Source: an uncultured Bacteroidia bacterium (GTDB lineage: Bacteria > Bacteroidota > Bacteroidia > Bacteroidales > Prolixibacteraceae). Taken from it: DNA of 35,443 nucleotides. A program made the translations under genes and the position numbers. Within the stretch, counting starts at the first letter, position 1; every line of letters starts with the position of its first letter. The stretch lies in NCBI GenBank assembly GCA_903834845.1, contig CAILKW010000394.1, positions 1-35,443 on the forward strand, in the 5' to 3' direction. The notes under the pieces are model-generated. The model did no database searches and had not been told where the DNA came from. It saw nothing but the letters and a program-made list of their open reading frames with translations. Shown one piece after another: positions 27,862 to 33,547 of this stretch.

Positions 27862-28614
27862 TTAGCCAAACCACAATTTAAAATCAGTGATACGTGCTTT
27901 ACTTACCAATATTTTTTCGGGGGCAGTTGGTTTTAAATTGATTGAAAGCCTGCTGTTAAACCATAAATCAACGTCTTTAATAGCTTTTCGGGAAATAATA
28001 AACTGCCGATTCGCCTTGTAAAAATCTTTTGGATTCAGTAAAGCAGACAATTCGTCTATAGTATATTGCATGACAAAGGTTTTCTGGTCATAAGTAACTG
28101 CCTTTACAATGTTTAAATCAATATAAATATAGGCAATATCACTGATTATCAGGGGAATTAATTTATCTCCTTTTATGTTGACAAGAAAATGGGTCTTGTA
28201 ATCAATATTGGGTTTGATAATGGATAATATTTTCTTCAACTCATCAGAACTGACATTTCCTTTCGTCATACTTTTAAATTTATTGAGAGCTTTTTTTACT
28301 GCCGTTGCATCAATTGGCTTTAGCAAATAGTCAATACTATTAACTTTAAAAGCCTGCAAAGCATAAGCATCATAAGCGGTTGTAAATATTACGGGGCAAT
28401 TTATATCAACAAGCTTAAATATTTCGAAGGCAGAGCCGTCTGCAAGGTGGATGTCCATAAATACTAAATCGGGATCTTCATTCAATTCGAACCACTCGAC
28501 GGTATCAACAATACTTTCAAGTACGGCAATAATGGTAATACTGCCAATCTCCTTGAATATGCTCTGGAGGTTGCGAACTGCCAATTCTTCATCTTCTATT
28601 ATTATGACGTTCAT
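27862..28614 (-). CDS. LytTR-type response regulator
   Basis: This 250-residue protein has a receiver domain (MNVIIIEDEELAVRNL; phosphoacceptor Asp54 in LVFMDIHLADG; FTTAYDAYALQAFKVNSIDYLLKP with Lys99) and a C-terminal LytTR DNA-binding domain (about residues 145-250: FLVNIKGDKLIPL, YKANRQFIISRKAI). It overlaps the kinase gene by 4 bp (ATGA), so translation is coupled. LytTR regulators bind direct repeats upstream of targets; the receptor gene downstream is the natural candidate. Confidence 0.95.
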   Translation of the reverse strand: MNVIIIEDEELAVRNLQSIFKEIGSITIIAVLESIVDTVEWFELNEDPDLVFMDIHLADGSAFEIFKLVDINCPVIFTTAYDAYALQAFKVNSIDYLLKPIDATAVKKALNKFKSMTKGNVSSDELKKILSIIKPNIDYKTHFLVNIKGDKLIPLIISDIAYIYIDLNIVKAVTYDQKTFVMQYTIDELSALLNPKDFYKANRQFIISRKAIKDVDLWFNSRLSINLKPTAPEKILVSKARITDFKLWFG

Positions 28615-29708
28615 GGCTTAAGTAAGGGTATTTCGACTACAAAGTTAATATTGTCATTCTTTATTATTATATCTTTACCTACAAGAATTCGGTATTGGTT
28701 CGACAAATTAACCAGACCCAATCCTGTCCCCGATTCAGGGGCGTATTTTTTATTGATGTTGTTAATCACAATAAGAGTATTTAAATCGGTTGTAGAAACT
28801 GAAAGTTCTAAGGGATGCCGTTTGCTTATCTCGTTATGCTTTACGGCATTTTCAATCAATATTTGTAAAGCAAGGGGTGGTATTTTAAATTCAGCGAGAT
28901 TTTTGTTAATATTAAGTGATAAAGTAATGTTTTGATTAAAACGCAATTTGATAAGAAAGAAGTATGACTCAACAAATTGTAATTCATCATTTAAACTTAC
29001 CAATTTGTTTTCGTTTGCCTGAAGCGTATAACGTAAAACAGACGATAAATGGTTGAGGTATTCCTGTGCTACCAAAGGTGTTTCTCTTATCAATGTCGTC
29101 AATGAATTTAGCGAGTTGAATAAAAAGTGAGGACTTACCTGGTTTTTTAATGCATCAAATTGCCTTTGAAGGTTTTCAATTTTCAAATTTTGGATTTCCA
29201 ACCTATTTCGTTGATTTTGATAAATAACCTTTATAACGTATATGCAGACAATTACAACTAAAGCAATGAAAAAATCTTTAAAAAAGAATAAGCTTTCATG
29301 TTTTTCTGCCTCGACTCTGGGAAAAATTGTACTTTTAAATAGAAACAGAAAATGACTGAGAAAAAGTACGATTGTAAACGAGACAATCACGGCTATAACA
29401 ATAGTTACCGGTTTGTTTAATCTATTGGTTTGAAGAGGTTTTAGGATGTAGAAATTTATCAGAAACAATAAAAAACAGATAATGAAGGTTATGAATATTT
29501 CGGATAGGATATTAAAAGTAAATTGAACCAATGAATTTTGGGAAGAAGAATGGGAAATAGATTCATCAAAGATACGGCTGAAATGCACTAAAATACTAAT
29601 GGCTATTGAAAGCCAAAGCGTTATAACAATATATCTTTTTTCAATACTATTTCCCATTCTATGAATATTTATACAATTACAACCTGACTGCATTTCTTTA
29701 AAATTCAC
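28611..29708 (-). CDS. LytS/YehU-type sensor histidine kinase
   Basis: This 365-residue membrane kinase has four hydrophobic segments in the first ~165 residues, then a His_kinase domain: QFDALKNQVSPHFLFNSLNS (the phosphorylated His in SPHFLFN), an N-box LIENAVKHNEI and a G-box GTGLGLVNL. It lacks a PAS or large periplasmic domain, so the signal is likely sensed within the membrane. The predicted start at 29708 adds a polar leader; ATG 29657 (MGNSIEKRY) is a sensible alternative. It is partnered with the LytTR regulator by overlap. Confidence 0.92.
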   Translation of the reverse strand: MNFKEMQSGCNCINIHRMGNSIEKRYIVITLWLSIAISILVHFSRIFDESISHSSSQNSLVQFTFNILSEIFITFIICFLLFLINFYILKPLQTNRLNKPVTIVIAVIVSFTIVLFLSHFLFLFKSTIFPRVEAEKHESLFFFKDFFIALVVIVCIYVIKVIYQNQRNRLEIQNLKIENLQRQFDALKNQVSPHFLFNSLNSLTTLIRETPLVAQEYLNHLSSVLRYTLQANENKLVSLNDELQFVESYFFLIKLRFNQNITLSLNINKNLAEFKIPPLALQILIENAVKHNEISKRHPLELSVSTTDLNTLIVINNINKKYAPESGTGLGLVNLSNQYRILVGKDIIIKNDNINFVVEIPLLKP

Positions 29709-29796: not shown

Positions 29797-30132
29797 TCAT
29801 TTGCATGCCGGACGTACTTGAATGTCTCTCTTTTTTGCAAAAAAATCTTCCCATCCTTTATTATCCCAGTTAGGACGATTCCCTTGTTCATCAAATAGTT
29901 GGCAATATACACAGGACCAGAAACCCGCATAAATATGATAGTATCTTTTCCCGTTGTACTCAATTACGGTAACATCGGTTATTTCACAAAGTTTCTGATC
30001 GCCAATCAATTCTGTGATTTTTTGCTGTAGCCATACAGGAAAATCATCGGAACTGTTAAGCAAATCCTTCTTGTTACACGAAAGAATAACAAACACAGAA
30101 AATATAGTGACAAGAATTATCAATTTTTTCAT
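29797..30132 (-). CDS. Small cysteine-containing lipoprotein at the end of the ars-hgc operon
   Basis: This 111-residue protein has a lipoprotein signal (IILVTIFSVFVILSC, lipidated Cys19). The mature part carries Cys49, a CVYC pair (Cys74, Cys77) and Cys110 near the end, plus conserved-looking aromatic residues (YNGKRYYHIYAGFWSC). I do not recognise the family. It follows acr3 by 28 bp in the same orientation and may be the last gene of the operon; the free cysteines could bind a soft metal, but that is inference. It could equally be an unrelated gene that happens to follow. Confidence 0.65.
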   Translation of the reverse strand: MKKLIILVTIFSVFVILSCNKKDLLNSSDDFPVWLQQKITELIGDQKLCEITDVTVIEYNGKRYYHIYAGFWSCVYCQLFDEQGNRPNWDNKGWEDFFAKKRDIQVRPACK

Positions 30133-30160
30133 GAATTCTATTGTGCCTAAAGTTTTTCAA

Positions 30161-31195
30161 TTAATTCGCATATAATTTCCGTTTGAAATAAAATGCTACA
30201 TTTACCAAAGCAACCATTACGGGGACTTCAACTAAGGGGCCAATAACTGTGGCAAATGCGGCTTGCGAATTAATACCAAATACTGCAATAGCCACTGCAA
30301 TTGCCAGTTCGAAATCATTGCTTCCGGCAGTAAAAGCCATTGTTGTTGATTTTTCGTACCCTTCACCGATCCATTTTGCAATAAAAAAGGTTGTAAAAAA
30401 CATGAAAGCAAAATAAATGGTATAGGGTATTGCAACTCTGATTACATCGAGAGGTAAACCTATGATTTTTTCACCCTTTAATGAGAACATTACAAAAATT
30501 GTAAATAACAATGCAACAGGTGTTAACCATGAAACCTTTGAAATATATTTACTAAAGTACCATTCATTTCCTTTCCAACTGCGAAGTGCAAAGTTGGACA
30601 CTAAACCGGCAAAAAATGGTATTCCCAGATAAATCAAAACTGTAAGAGCAATTTCGGAAATTGAGACATCAACCACTACTCCTTGCAGACCAAAAAAAGG
30701 AGGCAGGAGAGTAATAAATACCCAGGCATAGACGGAATAGAGAAGCACTTGAAAAATTGCATTAAAAGCAACCAATCCTGCAGCAAGCTCTGCATCACCT
30801 TTGGCCAGATCGTTCCAAACCAAAACCATCGCTATACAACGTGCAAGACCTACAAGTATTACTCCTACCATTAATCCCGGATAATTATGAAGGAATATAA
30901 TGGCAAGGAAAAACATCACAAATGGACCAATAATCCAATTTTGCGTAAGCGACAAACTTAATAGTCTGACGTTTTTGAATACCAAAGGAAGTTTTTCGTA
31001 TTTCACCTTGGCAAGCGGCGGGTACATCATTAGTATCAAACCAATGGCAATTGGTATATTTGTAGTGCCTGAACTTAAAGAATTCCAAAAACCTGAAATA
31101 CCGGGCATAAAAAACCCGATAATAACTCCTGAAAACATCACAAGGAAAATCCATAATGTTAGATAGCGGTCAAAAAAGGAAAGTTGTATTTTCAT
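30161..31195 (-). CDS. acr3: ACR3-type arsenite efflux transporter
   Basis: This 344-residue protein has about ten membrane segments. Family marks are GFFMPGI near the start, [52 protein letters not shown] with the essential membrane Cys120, and [15 protein letters not shown] with [17 protein letters not shown] at the end (conserved Glu in the last part). It exports arsenite, and sometimes antimonite, by proton antiport. It is 21 bp after hgcB in the same operon, so arsenic export and hgcAB should be transcribed together. Confidence 0.97.
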
Positions 31196-31216
31196 GATTT
31201 AATGGTATTTATTATT

Positions 31217-31528
31217 TTAACAACAGATGTTTTTATTTTTTTTACTGCTTCCTGAGCAGTCGCATGAAGGTTCCGAATTGTTGATGATTCCGTTGATTAC
31301 TCCTGTGGCACATCCAACACCTGATTTGACATAAATAGCACCAAATTGGCAATTTAGGGCGCAGGCACCACATTCCATACAATCATCAATATCAACAATG
31401 TGTGCTTTTCTGTTACTGATTTCAAAAACAGCATGAGGACATACTTCGGTACATAATCCACAGCCTGTACACAAAGCGGATTCAAGTTTCAGTGTGACAA
31501 TGTTTTTTATATACTGCATCGTTTTCAT
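31217..31528 (-). CDS. hgcB: HgcB, mercury-methylation ferredoxin
   Basis: This 103-residue protein has two 4Fe-4S motifs: Cys20, 23, 26 and 30 (CTGCGLCTEVCP) and Cys50, 53, 56 and 60 (CMECGACALNC). Beyond the ferredoxin core it carries Cys73 (VGCATG), Cys89 and Cys91, and a terminal Cys pair (Cys102-Cys103). The extra Cys after the second cluster and the vicinal C-terminal pair set HgcB apart from ordinary ferredoxins; they are thought to bind mercury and pass it to HgcA. HgcB reduces the HgcA corrinoid. It starts 1 bp after the hgcA stop codon, the usual hgcAB order. ATG at 31519 (MQYIKNI) is an alternative start. Confidence 0.93.
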   Translation of the reverse strand: MKTMQYIKNIVTLKLESALCTGCGLCTEVCPHAVFEISNRKAHIVDIDDCMECGACALNCQFGAIYVKSGVGCATGVINGIINNSEPSCDCSGSSKKNKNICC

Positions 31529-31529
31529 G

Positions 31530-32555
31530 TCAAATTAATTTTGTAATTATGAAAAGGATAAAACCAACAAGTGCGAAGGTAATCTGAAAAGGAAGTGCCC
31601 ATTTTATTTCCTTTTTTACCCCTGATAATGAAGTGAAAGTTGAAGAACCGGTAAAATTCATTGTCATAAATGAAGCAATACTTACATTAAACAAACCCAA
31701 TGTCAGAATTTCCAATAAAGGGATTTCAAACGAATAAAACAGAATTAGTGTCACAACTCCTCCCCAAAATGCACCTTTCATTGCGAATGATCGAAAAGGT
31801 ACAAATGGTAGTAATAATGGTGCAACTACGATTCCTGAAATATAAGCTCCAAGTATGCTTAACAGAATTAGGGGACTTGTTTCCACCATTTTGGAGAAAA
31901 TAAAACCTGTTCTATCAAGCCCGGAGAAAAAAAACAATAAAACGAGAACAATCATCAGCTTATCCTTCCCATACATCAAATCAACAGGTATAAGTTTTGC
32001 CCGTTCGTGGAATGGGAAAGTTACTTTTCGCATTGCGGAAGTGGCTTTATAACCTGCAAAAACAAATGATTTGATGTCTTTTGCAATTATTGGCCCATAA
32101 ACAACCTTAAATCCGGTTTGCTCCTTTACTTTATGAGCTGAAATTCCAACTGCACCCAACTGCGGTACGATAATCTTTCGATGCTTAACGATGTACTCCA
32201 ATGCAGTATTTTTGATGCTTTTAATGAGGTTATTTGTTCCGAACGTTCCCTTACCTGCGGCACACCATACATTGATTCCATTGGTATCGAGTACCAAAAT
32301 CCAAGCGTTTAATGAATTTAGATTCTTACGCAATGAATCAAAGGACAATTTATAGTTTGCTGTGACAAACACATCCGATTGGTTGTTTGGCATTCCCACT
32401 TTGTATAGGCCTGGAGAAACCGAGTAACTATCCCGTTTTATTCCCCATATTACTTTGACTGCTCCCCAATAATCTGAAATGTTCAGACGGGTCGAAACTG
32501 TTGGAACCTGCAAAGTTAGAGGTTTTAAAGACTGAAAATCAACTGAGAAATTCAT
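31530..32555 (-). CDS. hgcA: HgcA, corrinoid methyltransferase of mercury methylation
   Basis: This 341-residue protein is close to the usual HgcA length. The N-terminal cytoplasmic corrinoid-binding domain, related to the CFeSP large subunit of the acetyl-CoA pathway, contains the diagnostic cap-helix motif NVWCAAGKGTFG; Cys98 is the expected lower ligand of cobalt. The C-terminal half has five membrane segments (LMIVLVLLFFFSGL, LILLSILGAYISGIVVAPLLL, WGGVVTLILFYSF, LLEILTLGLFNVSIASFMT, FALVGFILFIITKLI), which CFeSP proteins lack. HgcA transfers a methyl group from a corrinoid to Hg(II), making methylmercury. It lies 13 bp after arsC and 1 bp before hgcB. The motif and adjacent HgcB make the call firm. 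Confidence 0.95.
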   Translation of the reverse strand: MNFSVDFQSLKPLTLQVPTVSTRLNISDYWGAVKVIWGIKRDSYSVSPGLYKVGMPNNQSDVFVTANYKLSFDSLRKNLNSLNAWILVLDTNGINVWCAAGKGTFGTNNLIKSIKNTALEYIVKHRKIIVPQLGAVGISAHKVKEQTGFKVVYGPIIAKDIKSFVFAGYKATSAMRKVTFPFHERAKLIPVDLMYGKDKLMIVLVLLFFFSGLDRTGFIFSKMVETSPLILLSILGAYISGIVVAPLLLPFVPFRSFAMKGAFWGGVVTLILFYSFEIPLLEILTLGLFNVSIASFMTMNFTGSSTFTSLSGVKKEIKWALPFQITFALVGFILFIITKLI

Positions 32556-32568
32556 ATCAATTTTTCAA

Positions 32569-32991
32569 TCAATTAAATTTCAGGTTATTAATGTAAAATT
32601 CATAGAACTGAGCCTTAATCTCATCTCTTACACGAATAAACTCACTTTGGATAAACTCTTCGGTTCCTGTAGCATGAGAGGGATCGTCAAAACCAATATG
32701 CAGTCTGTGTTTTACTTTACCAATAAATGCGGGACAAGCTTCGTTAGCTCCGCCACAAACTGTGATTACATAATCCCATTCTTCTCCGAGGTACAAATCA
32801 ACTGAATCAGAAGTGTGGTGGCTAATATCTATGCCAGCTTCTTTCATAACGGCAACTGCTTTGGGGTTAAGTTTGCCAGAAGCTTCTGTACCTGCTGACC
32901 GAACGATAATTCTAGGATCGAACCATTGTAAAAAGCCTTCAGCCATTTGGCTTCGGCAACTGTTTCCTGTACAAAGAATTAAGACTTTCAT
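32569..32991 (-). CDS. arsC: Arsenate reductase, low-molecular-weight phosphatase type
   Basis: This 140-residue enzyme starts MKVLILCTGNSCRSQMAEGF, the CX5R phosphatase loop with nucleophile Cys7 and Arg13. The redox cascade cysteines are Cys79 and Cys86 (VITVCGGANEACP), spaced as in thioredoxin-coupled ArsC enzymes. FDDPSHATGT supplies the general-acid Asp-Pro loop. It reduces arsenate to arsenite for export. I chose ATG 32991 because homology begins there; an in-frame ATG at 33051 would overlap arsR and add 20 unrelated residues. It follows arsR by 19 bp. Confidence 0.95.
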   Translation of the reverse strand: MKVLILCTGNSCRSQMAEGFLQWFDPRIIVRSAGTEASGKLNPKAVAVMKEAGIDISHHTSDSVDLYLGEEWDYVITVCGGANEACPAFIGKVKHRLHIGFDDPSHATGTEEFIQSEFIRVRDEIKAQFYEFYINNLKFN

Positions 32992-33010
32992 ATTGTTATT
33001 TGTTAAATTA

Positions 33011-33349
33011 TCAAGACACGCATGAATAATTTTCCGGAAGTTGAATTTCATTCAGAAAGTCCAATAGAATCTTTTTCATCTCCTCAACCTTTCTATAATC
33101 GAGGCAATAGTTCATTTTAGCGCCGGAAACATGTCCTTGAATCAATCCTGCTTCTTTTAGTTCATTCAAATGCTGATTGACAGTTGAACGACTAAGAGGC
33201 AACTCTTCGGAAATATCGCCGGAAATACAGGTTTTAGTTTCGGCCAGAAATTGTAGGATTTGCAGTCGCGCCGGGTGGGCAAGGGCTTTGAATAAATTAG
33301 CCCTGTCCTGAAGTACTTCATCGAAAAGATCTGTTTTTGATACTACCAT
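33011..33349 (-). CDS. arsR: ArsR-family metalloid-responsive repressor
   Basis: This 112-residue winged-helix protein has FKALAHPARLQILQFL at the N-terminus and LPLSRSTVNQHLNELKEAGL as the recognition helix region. Cysteines are at 41 (KTCISGDI, on the helix before the recognition region), 82 and 110 (YSC near the end). The classical ELCVCDL site is not present, so the arsenic-sensing site differs from the E. coli type; Cys41 and Cys110 are candidates. It should bind its own promoter and release on As(III) binding. It is the first gene of the operon and so controls arsC, hgcA, hgcB and acr3. Whether mercury also induces it cannot be told. Confidence 0.93.
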   Translation of the reverse strand: MVVSKTDLFDEVLQDRANLFKALAHPARLQILQFLAETKTCISGDISEELPLSRSTVNQHLNELKEAGLIQGHVSGAKMNYCLDYRKVEEMKKILLDFLNEIQLPENYSCVS

Positions 33350-33364
33350 AACTTTCGTTTTTAA

Positions 33365-33412
33365 TTTACGGCGTAAATATACGTCAAATATAAATACAAC
33401 GTATTAATACGT
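33365..33412 (-). promoter_or_regulatory. ars-hgc operon promoter with palindromic operator candidates
   Basis: On the minus strand TATATTTG (33385-33392) is a -7 box about 35 bp before the arsR start. A perfect 14-bp palindrome ACGTATTAATACGT (33399-33412) lies just upstream, between the -7 and the expected -33 position. A second near-palindrome TTTACGGCGTAAA (33365-33377) lies downstream of the box. Both are suited to a dimeric ArsR repressor that would block polymerase. Confidence 0.65.
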
Positions 33413-33507
33413 CATATAATTTTCAAATTATTCTTATTCATTGATATTTAGCAATATGAATGGCGGAAATAAATTTTTACCTGTTGGTATCAGGTTGCTA
33501 AAAATGG

Positions 33508-33547
33508 AAAAAGCTCAACCGGTATCAGTTTACCGGTTGAGCTTTTT
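33508..33547 (-). terminator. Rho-independent terminator of the PKD surface protein gene
   Basis: AAAAAGCTCAACCGGTA and its exact reverse complement form a 17-bp stem around a 6-base loop (TCAGTT). On the minus strand it ends in a T run. It is about 50 bp downstream of the stop codon and separates this gene from the ars-hgc promoter. Confidence 0.92.

Follow-up and report, generated by a model that had tools for sequence, protein, structure and literature searches.

Mercury-methylation genes hgcAB in a putative cargo slot of an arsenic-resistance operon from a Prolixibacteraceae genome

Why should a pair of mercury-methylation genes lie between an arsenate reductase gene and an arsenite exporter gene? 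The question is raised by a stretch of 35,443 nucleotides, here called the window (contig CAILKW010000394.1 of GenBank assembly GCA_903834845.1, from an uncultured Bacteroidia bacterium of the family Prolixibacteraceae), in which six genes on the minus strand follow one another from 33349 to 29797 in the order arsR-arsC-hgcA-hgcB-acr3-small lipoprotein gene. A previous sequence-only reading had reported this order, the single strand and gaps of 19, 13, 1, 21 and 28 bp, all of which agree with the coordinates when the arsC start is set at 32991, and had concluded that arsenic turns on the production of methylmercury. The explanation that we consider probable is narrower: hgcAB would be an exchangeable cargo of the sole arsC-acr3 operon found in this genome, co-transcribed under an ArsR that is released by arsenic. 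Indeed, the Acr3 match of the operon and its TIGR02691 match, namely the window ArsC, are the only ones in the genome. The HgcAB family is established as methylating Hg(II), but its natural role has yet to be settled, and organisms are credited with the ability to methylate because they carry the genes.

The products of hgcA, hgcB, acr3 and arsR pass the curated NCBIfam cut-offs for the identities previously given to them. HgcA (341 amino acids (aa), 31530..32555, minus strand as for all genes of the operon) scores 404.1 bits with NF040863 (cut-off 275) versus 57.3 bits with the CdhD model PF03599 and 75.4 bits with the carbon monoxide dehydrogenase (CODH) gamma-subunit model, and on these scores a CODH-type corrinoid protein, the alternative identity that the sequence-only reading had named, was rejected. 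The solved chains nearest to it are subunits of corrinoid/iron-sulfur proteins (best E 7.8e-12, one domain covered). Its sequence NVWCAAGK contains Cys98, the corrinoid-ligand cysteine, and conforms to the cap-helix signature N(V/I)WCA(A/G)GK. By hydropathy HgcA has about four or five membrane segments, close to the five claimed earlier, and a C-terminal membrane domain is indicated by hydropathic segments within residues 200-341. HgcB (103 aa, 31217..31528) scores 116.2 bits with NF040864 (cut-off 99) and has the features previously listed for it: two CX2CX2CX3C motifs for [4Fe-4S] clusters, Cys73 and a terminal pair, Cys102-Cys103. Acr3 (344 aa, 30161..31195) scores 418.8 bits with TIGR00832 (cut-off 282.8).

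For comparison, 101 sequences with hgcA were assembled (66 + 34 + the window), and 95 were counted after removal of four duplicates (among them L109, identical to L007 of the same genus, and L110, identical to L002 of the same family) and of L116 and L137, which have no passing HgcA frame longer than 150 aa. The cap-helix motif was found in 88 of the 95 loci. HgcB adjoins HgcA in 73, with Cys73 in 72 of these and the terminal cysteine pair in 55. By its profile scores and motifs the hgcAB pair of the window is genuine, and we infer its ability to methylate Hg(II). In two closely related HgcA proteins (L005 and L006) the sequence NVWCSAAKG replaces the motif.

The surroundings of the pair were examined in genomes lacking it. 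The window ArsC has a match in 126 of 140 genomes of the family and is far commoner than HgcA, which occurs in nine of them (eight over the cut-off), in 28 of 393 genomes of the order sample (24 over the cut-off) and in two of 395 of the phylum sample. The interval between arsC and acr3 was compared across 40 arsC loci whose genomes lack HgcA, comprising all 14 same-genus loci with an ArsC match in the sample and 26 loci hand-picked across other genera. In 12 of the 14 same-genus loci arsM comes after arsC, with 8 to 461 bp separating it from the ArsC match; each of these 12 ArsM products exceeds the curated cut-off for arsenite methyltransferase (263 bits; the three that were rescanned gave 331-338), and acr3 comes next in 11 of them, none being found in the arsM-bearing locus L188. 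In L187 an open reading frame (ORF) of 115 aa lies between arsC and arsM. The remaining two, L185 and L186, hold a large ORF in the slot instead of arsM. That of L185 (3189-5564), the only one of the two scanned, encodes a bifunctional GshA/GshB (911 bits, cut-off 425), which suggests that ars operons of Bacteroidota possess a modular site for cargo. L185 also shares the sensor kinase (78% identity) and response regulator (85%) of the window directly after acr3, and because this pair follows acr3 in both, the two slot positions are orthologous.

A second hgcAB-bearing locus of the genus, L007, has the order arsR-arsC-PRK09272 protein-hgcA-hgcB-acr3-lipoprotein, and L201, from another genus, reads arsC-PRK09272-like protein-arsM-acr3. 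In other genera the slot frequently contains nothing or other ORFs, and ArsM was found in nine of the 26 loci. As arsM, gshAB and hgcAB alternate at one position, hgcAB occupies an exchangeable slot for cargo, in which most members of its genus carry arsM. The sequence-only reading had correctly identified the genes and placed hgcAB inside the ars operon, and had missed this character of the position. A literature search of titles and abstract openings, with most subscription journals outside its scope, found neither a description of an hgcAB/arsM slot exchange nor a paper with both 'methylarsenite' and 'hgcA'.

Linkage of hgcAB to ars genes recurs well beyond the window. Within 4.5 kb and on the same strand, ArsC or Acr3 accompanies 31 of the 95 HgcA loci, ArsR alone 18, and none of the three the other 46; the linked 31 comprise 24 of the 42 Bacteroidota-derived loci and seven of the 53 others. 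The search for the same gene order in other genomes, proposed by the earlier reading, found hgcAB with arsC on its upstream side and acr3 on its downstream side in 15 of the 95. Of the Acr3 matches within 8 kb of hgcA, 26 of 27 are on the same strand (the exception is L032) and 18 lie at 1-2 kb downstream, while none occurs at 5-8 kb on either side in the 95 loci; ArsC matches within 8 kb are on the same strand in 33 of 33 cases, one of them at 5-6 kb. Chance adjacency was rejected on this positional distribution of Acr3. On the HgcA tree the window falls in a clade of 12 rows (SH-aLRT, an approximate likelihood-ratio branch support, of 100), 11 of which are linked to arsC or acr3; the exception, L005, carries ArsR alone, on a stretch that stops inside hgcB. 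The surrounding clade of 39 rows contains 24 linked rows, seven with ArsR alone and eight with none. The linkage label requires 15 changes on this tree, a quick one with long-branch warnings, versus 26.4 for shuffles, of which none in 500 gave so low a number. Thus, with 11 of 12 rows linked in the window clade, the placement of hgcAB among ars genes is inherited.

Outside Bacteroidota the linkage is found in L018, L056, L058-L061 and L063, archaea included. The archaeal loci L056, L058 and L061 have ArsC or Acr3 nearby and are separate from the Bacteroidota rows on the tree. A record titled Peptostreptococcaceae (L004) carries HgcA with an ars operon and is nested among Bacteroidota rows, owing either to a binning error or to transfer.

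The promoter bears on how such a cargo could be controlled. Upstream of arsR, on the minus strand, lies the palindrome GACGTATTAATACGTT (33398..33413), which begins 64 bases before the arsR start and has a perfectly palindromic core of the form CGYAN4TRCG; an imperfect palindrome of the same class, GACGTATATTTACGCC (33370..33385), lies at -36 and overlaps a promoter-like TATATTT element that resembles the Bacteroidota -7 box. The two 16-bp sites stand 28 bp apart. The motif class occurs near 23 of 37 hgcA-linked arsR starts (-160 to +75), for 0.22 expected from dinucleotide shuffles, and the 28-bp pair recurs in L002, L119 and L126. In the hgcA-less sister regions the motif is present in all 37 examined, a count made with no shuffle control and with three of the 40 arsC loci set aside for having no arsR in range, and the 28-bp pair in 25 of the 37. 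A sigma-70 scan, a kind unsuited to Bacteroidota, gave 25 sites versus 25.6 expected. In Arsenicibacter rosenii, the DNase footprint of the repressor ArArsR, TTTTATCGTAATATTGCGATCACAATC, contains the same motif (accessible text of PMC11868830), and the ATCGYAN4TRCGAT-like operator of this type is present in the window promoter as two sites with the CGYAN4TRCG core. What is new here is the recognition, in the promoter of an hgcAB-bearing operon, of two palindromic sites belonging to a footprinted Bacteroidota arsenic-repressor class.

The window ArsR (112 aa, 33011..33349; NF033788 68.7 bits, cut-off 55) has Cys41, Cys82 and, near its end, Cys110; a search of solved structures with it returned distant family members only. 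According to the same text, ArArsR needs Cys41, Cys80 and Cys82 to respond to As(III) and just Cys41 and Cys82 to respond to methylarsenite, the loss of Cys80 having ended the former and spared the latter, and its Cys41 is the first cysteine of the R773-type site (PMC11868830). This residue corresponds to the CVC column of our alignment, which was built from the study loci without ArArsR, positions being matched by residue number and by that column. Among 37 same-strand ArsRs upstream of hgcA, Cys41 occurs in 36, Cys82 in 30 and Cys80 in 10, and Cys41 and Cys82 are kept in the 14 ArsRs of the same-genus operons lacking hgcA. The arsRMC operon of A. rosenii, as described in that source, thus shares with the window the operator class, Cys41 and Cys82, and an arsR-first Bacteroidota ars arrangement; it differs in the additional Cys80 and in having arsM as its cargo, where the window has hgcAB. 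With two of the three As(III)-site cysteines of ArArsR in the window ArsR, two promoter sites of the ArArsR operator class and the same features in arsM-bearing sister operons, the sequence gives good support to control of hgcAB by arsenic, and induction of hgcAB by arsenic is likely. That part of the earlier claim stands, whereas a claim on methylmercury formation exceeds one on transcription. In work on Pseudodesulfovibrio mercurii ND132, transcript level reportedly predicted methylation rate poorly.

In the mechanism that we propose, ArsR would bind the two palindromic sites at the promoter, and trivalent arsenic, either As(III) or methylarsenite, would release it by binding to Cys41 and Cys82 and perhaps Cys110. 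The six genes would then be transcribed together: a single arsenic-induced transcript is predicted from their common strand and gaps of 1-28 bp, and the terminator scan listed no site within the stretch that runs from arsR through the lipoprotein gene. ArsC would produce As(III) and Acr3 export it, while HgcA, through its corrinoid at Cys98, and HgcB, as electron donor with metal-binding cysteines, would methylate a soft, thiophilic ion, which would be Hg(II) where that is available. Since relatives fill the arsC-acr3 slot with arsM or gshAB, hgcAB is probably kept there within the arsenic response, and the slot suggests a role of HgcAB in arsenic handling which may range from bystander to replacement of ArsM. 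If hgcAB is indeed an arsenic-induced cargo across the clade, exposure to arsenic would act on it as a direct and measurable control.

Part of this picture was already known. In the accessible text of McDaniel et al. 2020 (PMC7438021), acr3 and arsC are said to border the hgcAB regions of several diverse putative methylators, ArsR-like genes and arsM to lie in the vicinity, and a link to arsenic is proposed; hgcAB of the window has the same genes as neighbours, and its flanking by acr3 and arsC is less novel than the earlier reading had assumed. That text contains no slot comparison, operator, analysis of ArsR residues or HgcA-ArsM count, which are given here. An arsenic-responsive ArsR-like regulator of hgcAB is likewise known from Pseudodesulfovibrio mercurii ND132, in which arsR is upstream of hgcAB, as in the window, and co-transcribed with it, with an arsenic-induced change (cited in the accessible text of PMC10349881). 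The window has hgcAB inside a full ars operon. The ND132 unit, reportedly described by Gionfriddo et al. 2023, is instead said to lack arsC and acr3.

Several observations weigh against the proposed explanation. In 46 loci hgcA has none of ArsR, ArsC and Acr3 as a same-strand neighbour within 4.5 kb, and hgcAB can thus persist when unlinked to ars genes. Elsewhere, an ars gene was present on four of 35 rice-paddy hgcAB contigs and arsR on none (PMC10349881), and blue-hole metagenome-assembled genomes (MAGs) lack arsR near hgcAB (PMC12953829), as far as the accessible texts go. The window ArsR has Asn at residue 80, so the full cysteine trio of ArArsR is absent. The window ArsC, an arsenate reductase-like protein (140 aa, 32569..32991), belongs to the LMWPc fold family (Pfam, 68.5 bits, cut-off 23.2) but is under the equivalog cut-off of TIGR02691 (134.2 versus 174.3). 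With Cys7, Cys12, Cys79 and Cys86, presumably in catalytic spacing, it may still work as a thioredoxin-dependent enzyme of the pI258 type. The last gene (29797..30132) encodes a small cysteine-bearing lipoprotein-like protein of 111 aa with no family match in NCBIfam or Pfam and is not general to such operons; among the 101 sequences its only homologue is in L007 (and its duplicate), placed after acr3 as in the window, and no match was found in the 40 hgcA-less arsC loci, some of which end shortly past acr3. Finally, the source is a single MAG (8.25 Mb; completeness 97.9%, contamination 6.1%), but a second MAG of the genus, L007, has the same operon, which also occurs in other families, and a one-off artefact was therefore rejected.

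The competing explanation that survives best, possible though somewhat unlikely, is that hgcAB was passively inserted into a permissive and strongly regulated operon, ArsM being absent on account of an anoxic niche in which methylarsenite would harm its maker. It would account for a slot that accepts unrelated cargo and for the eight rows without ars linkage and seven with ArsR alone in the 39-row clade, and horizontal transfer of hgcAB is argued in the accessible text of PMC7438021. However, the near-constant strand agreement exceeds what chance insertion would give, and the linkage, clustered on the tree yet requiring several changes, recurs outside Bacteroidota.

The earlier reading had offered as an alternative a shared soft-metal detoxification, in which ArsR would be a general switch for thiophilic metals, hgcAB would methylate Hg(II) for export and the ars genes would deal with arsenic. 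Members of the ArsR/SmtB family do respond to varied inducers, but the same ArsR cysteines and operator class accompany arsM or gshAB operons in the relatives, and we consider this explanation unlikely.

The exchange of arsM and hgcAB names a concrete alternative substrate for HgcAB, and at its extreme HgcAB would stand in for ArsM, as a corrinoid-dependent arsenite methyltransferase under arsenic control that took over the arsM slot; its native role would then be arsenic chemistry, with mercury methylation as a by-product. The shared slot in orthologous operons and ArsR cysteines suited to methylarsenite sensing are in its favor, as are the counts. ArsM is absent from all 31 arsC/acr3-linked hgcA loci versus present in 21 of the 40 hgcA-less arsC loci; in the order sample it passes the cut-off in 0 of 24 HgcA genomes versus 104 of 369 others (Fisher p 0.0006), and in the family in one of nine versus 77 of 131 (p 0.011). 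The order search, having scored at most six candidates per genome versus 16 in the family search, could miss some ArsM. Relatedness was corrected only by stratification within genera, by which the depletion in the family is weak (3.4 expected, 1 observed, P 0.06). Moreover, the family genome G405 has HgcA and ArsM on different contigs, the latter beside a second arsC; an ArsM-like gene lies 2.6 kb from hgcA in L057; L141, a doubtful HgcA row, has an ArsM match on the opposite strand; and two of the four order genomes with sub-cut-off HgcA matches have ArsM (G750, G857). In L108, from outside the class, hgcA is immediately preceded by arsR, an ArsM gene and ORFs of 91 and 237 aa, which shows that one cluster can contain both ArsM and hgcA. 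As these cases oppose it in differing degree and the stratified test is weak, strict exclusion of ArsM by hgcAB is not claimed. With two same-genus genomes carrying a large ORF there, the slot is not reserved for methylation, and HgcA is not known to have been shown to methylate arsenic. We consider replacement of ArsM quite unlikely.

Some further features of the genome and of the flanking DNA were recorded. C445, a gene resembling arsM at another place in the genome, was rejected as ArsM for being too distant (186 bits, cut-off 263). HgcA is the only CdhD-family protein, and a frame of 1104 aa with a pterin-binding domain, about the size of MetH, is present. A search of the genome for MerB gave no match and is uninformative, as no control gave a signal either. 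Downstream of the proposed unit, a LytTR-type response regulator and the sensor kinase (27862..29708, minus strand, Pfam scan) serve as a flanking synteny marker. Between the operon and the upstream PKD gene lies a terminator-like hairpin of 17 pairs with a T-rich tail (33508..33547, minus strand); the terminator scan alone is weak evidence, since it found three sites versus 4.0 expected in shuffles, though the stem of this one is long.

A second recurring neighbourhood of hgcAB consists of a small cysteine-rich protein with one likely membrane segment followed by a CcdA/DsbD-like membrane protein (roughly 226-235 aa) encoded a short distance upstream of hgcA. The pair was seen by sequence in L015, L063, L111, L130 and L132, and by length and place also in L120, L124, L127, L129 and others. 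Among the Bacteroidota neighbour proteins scanned (97 of 123), DsbD_2 matches numbered 10 and matches to the ArsG-family transporter model four.

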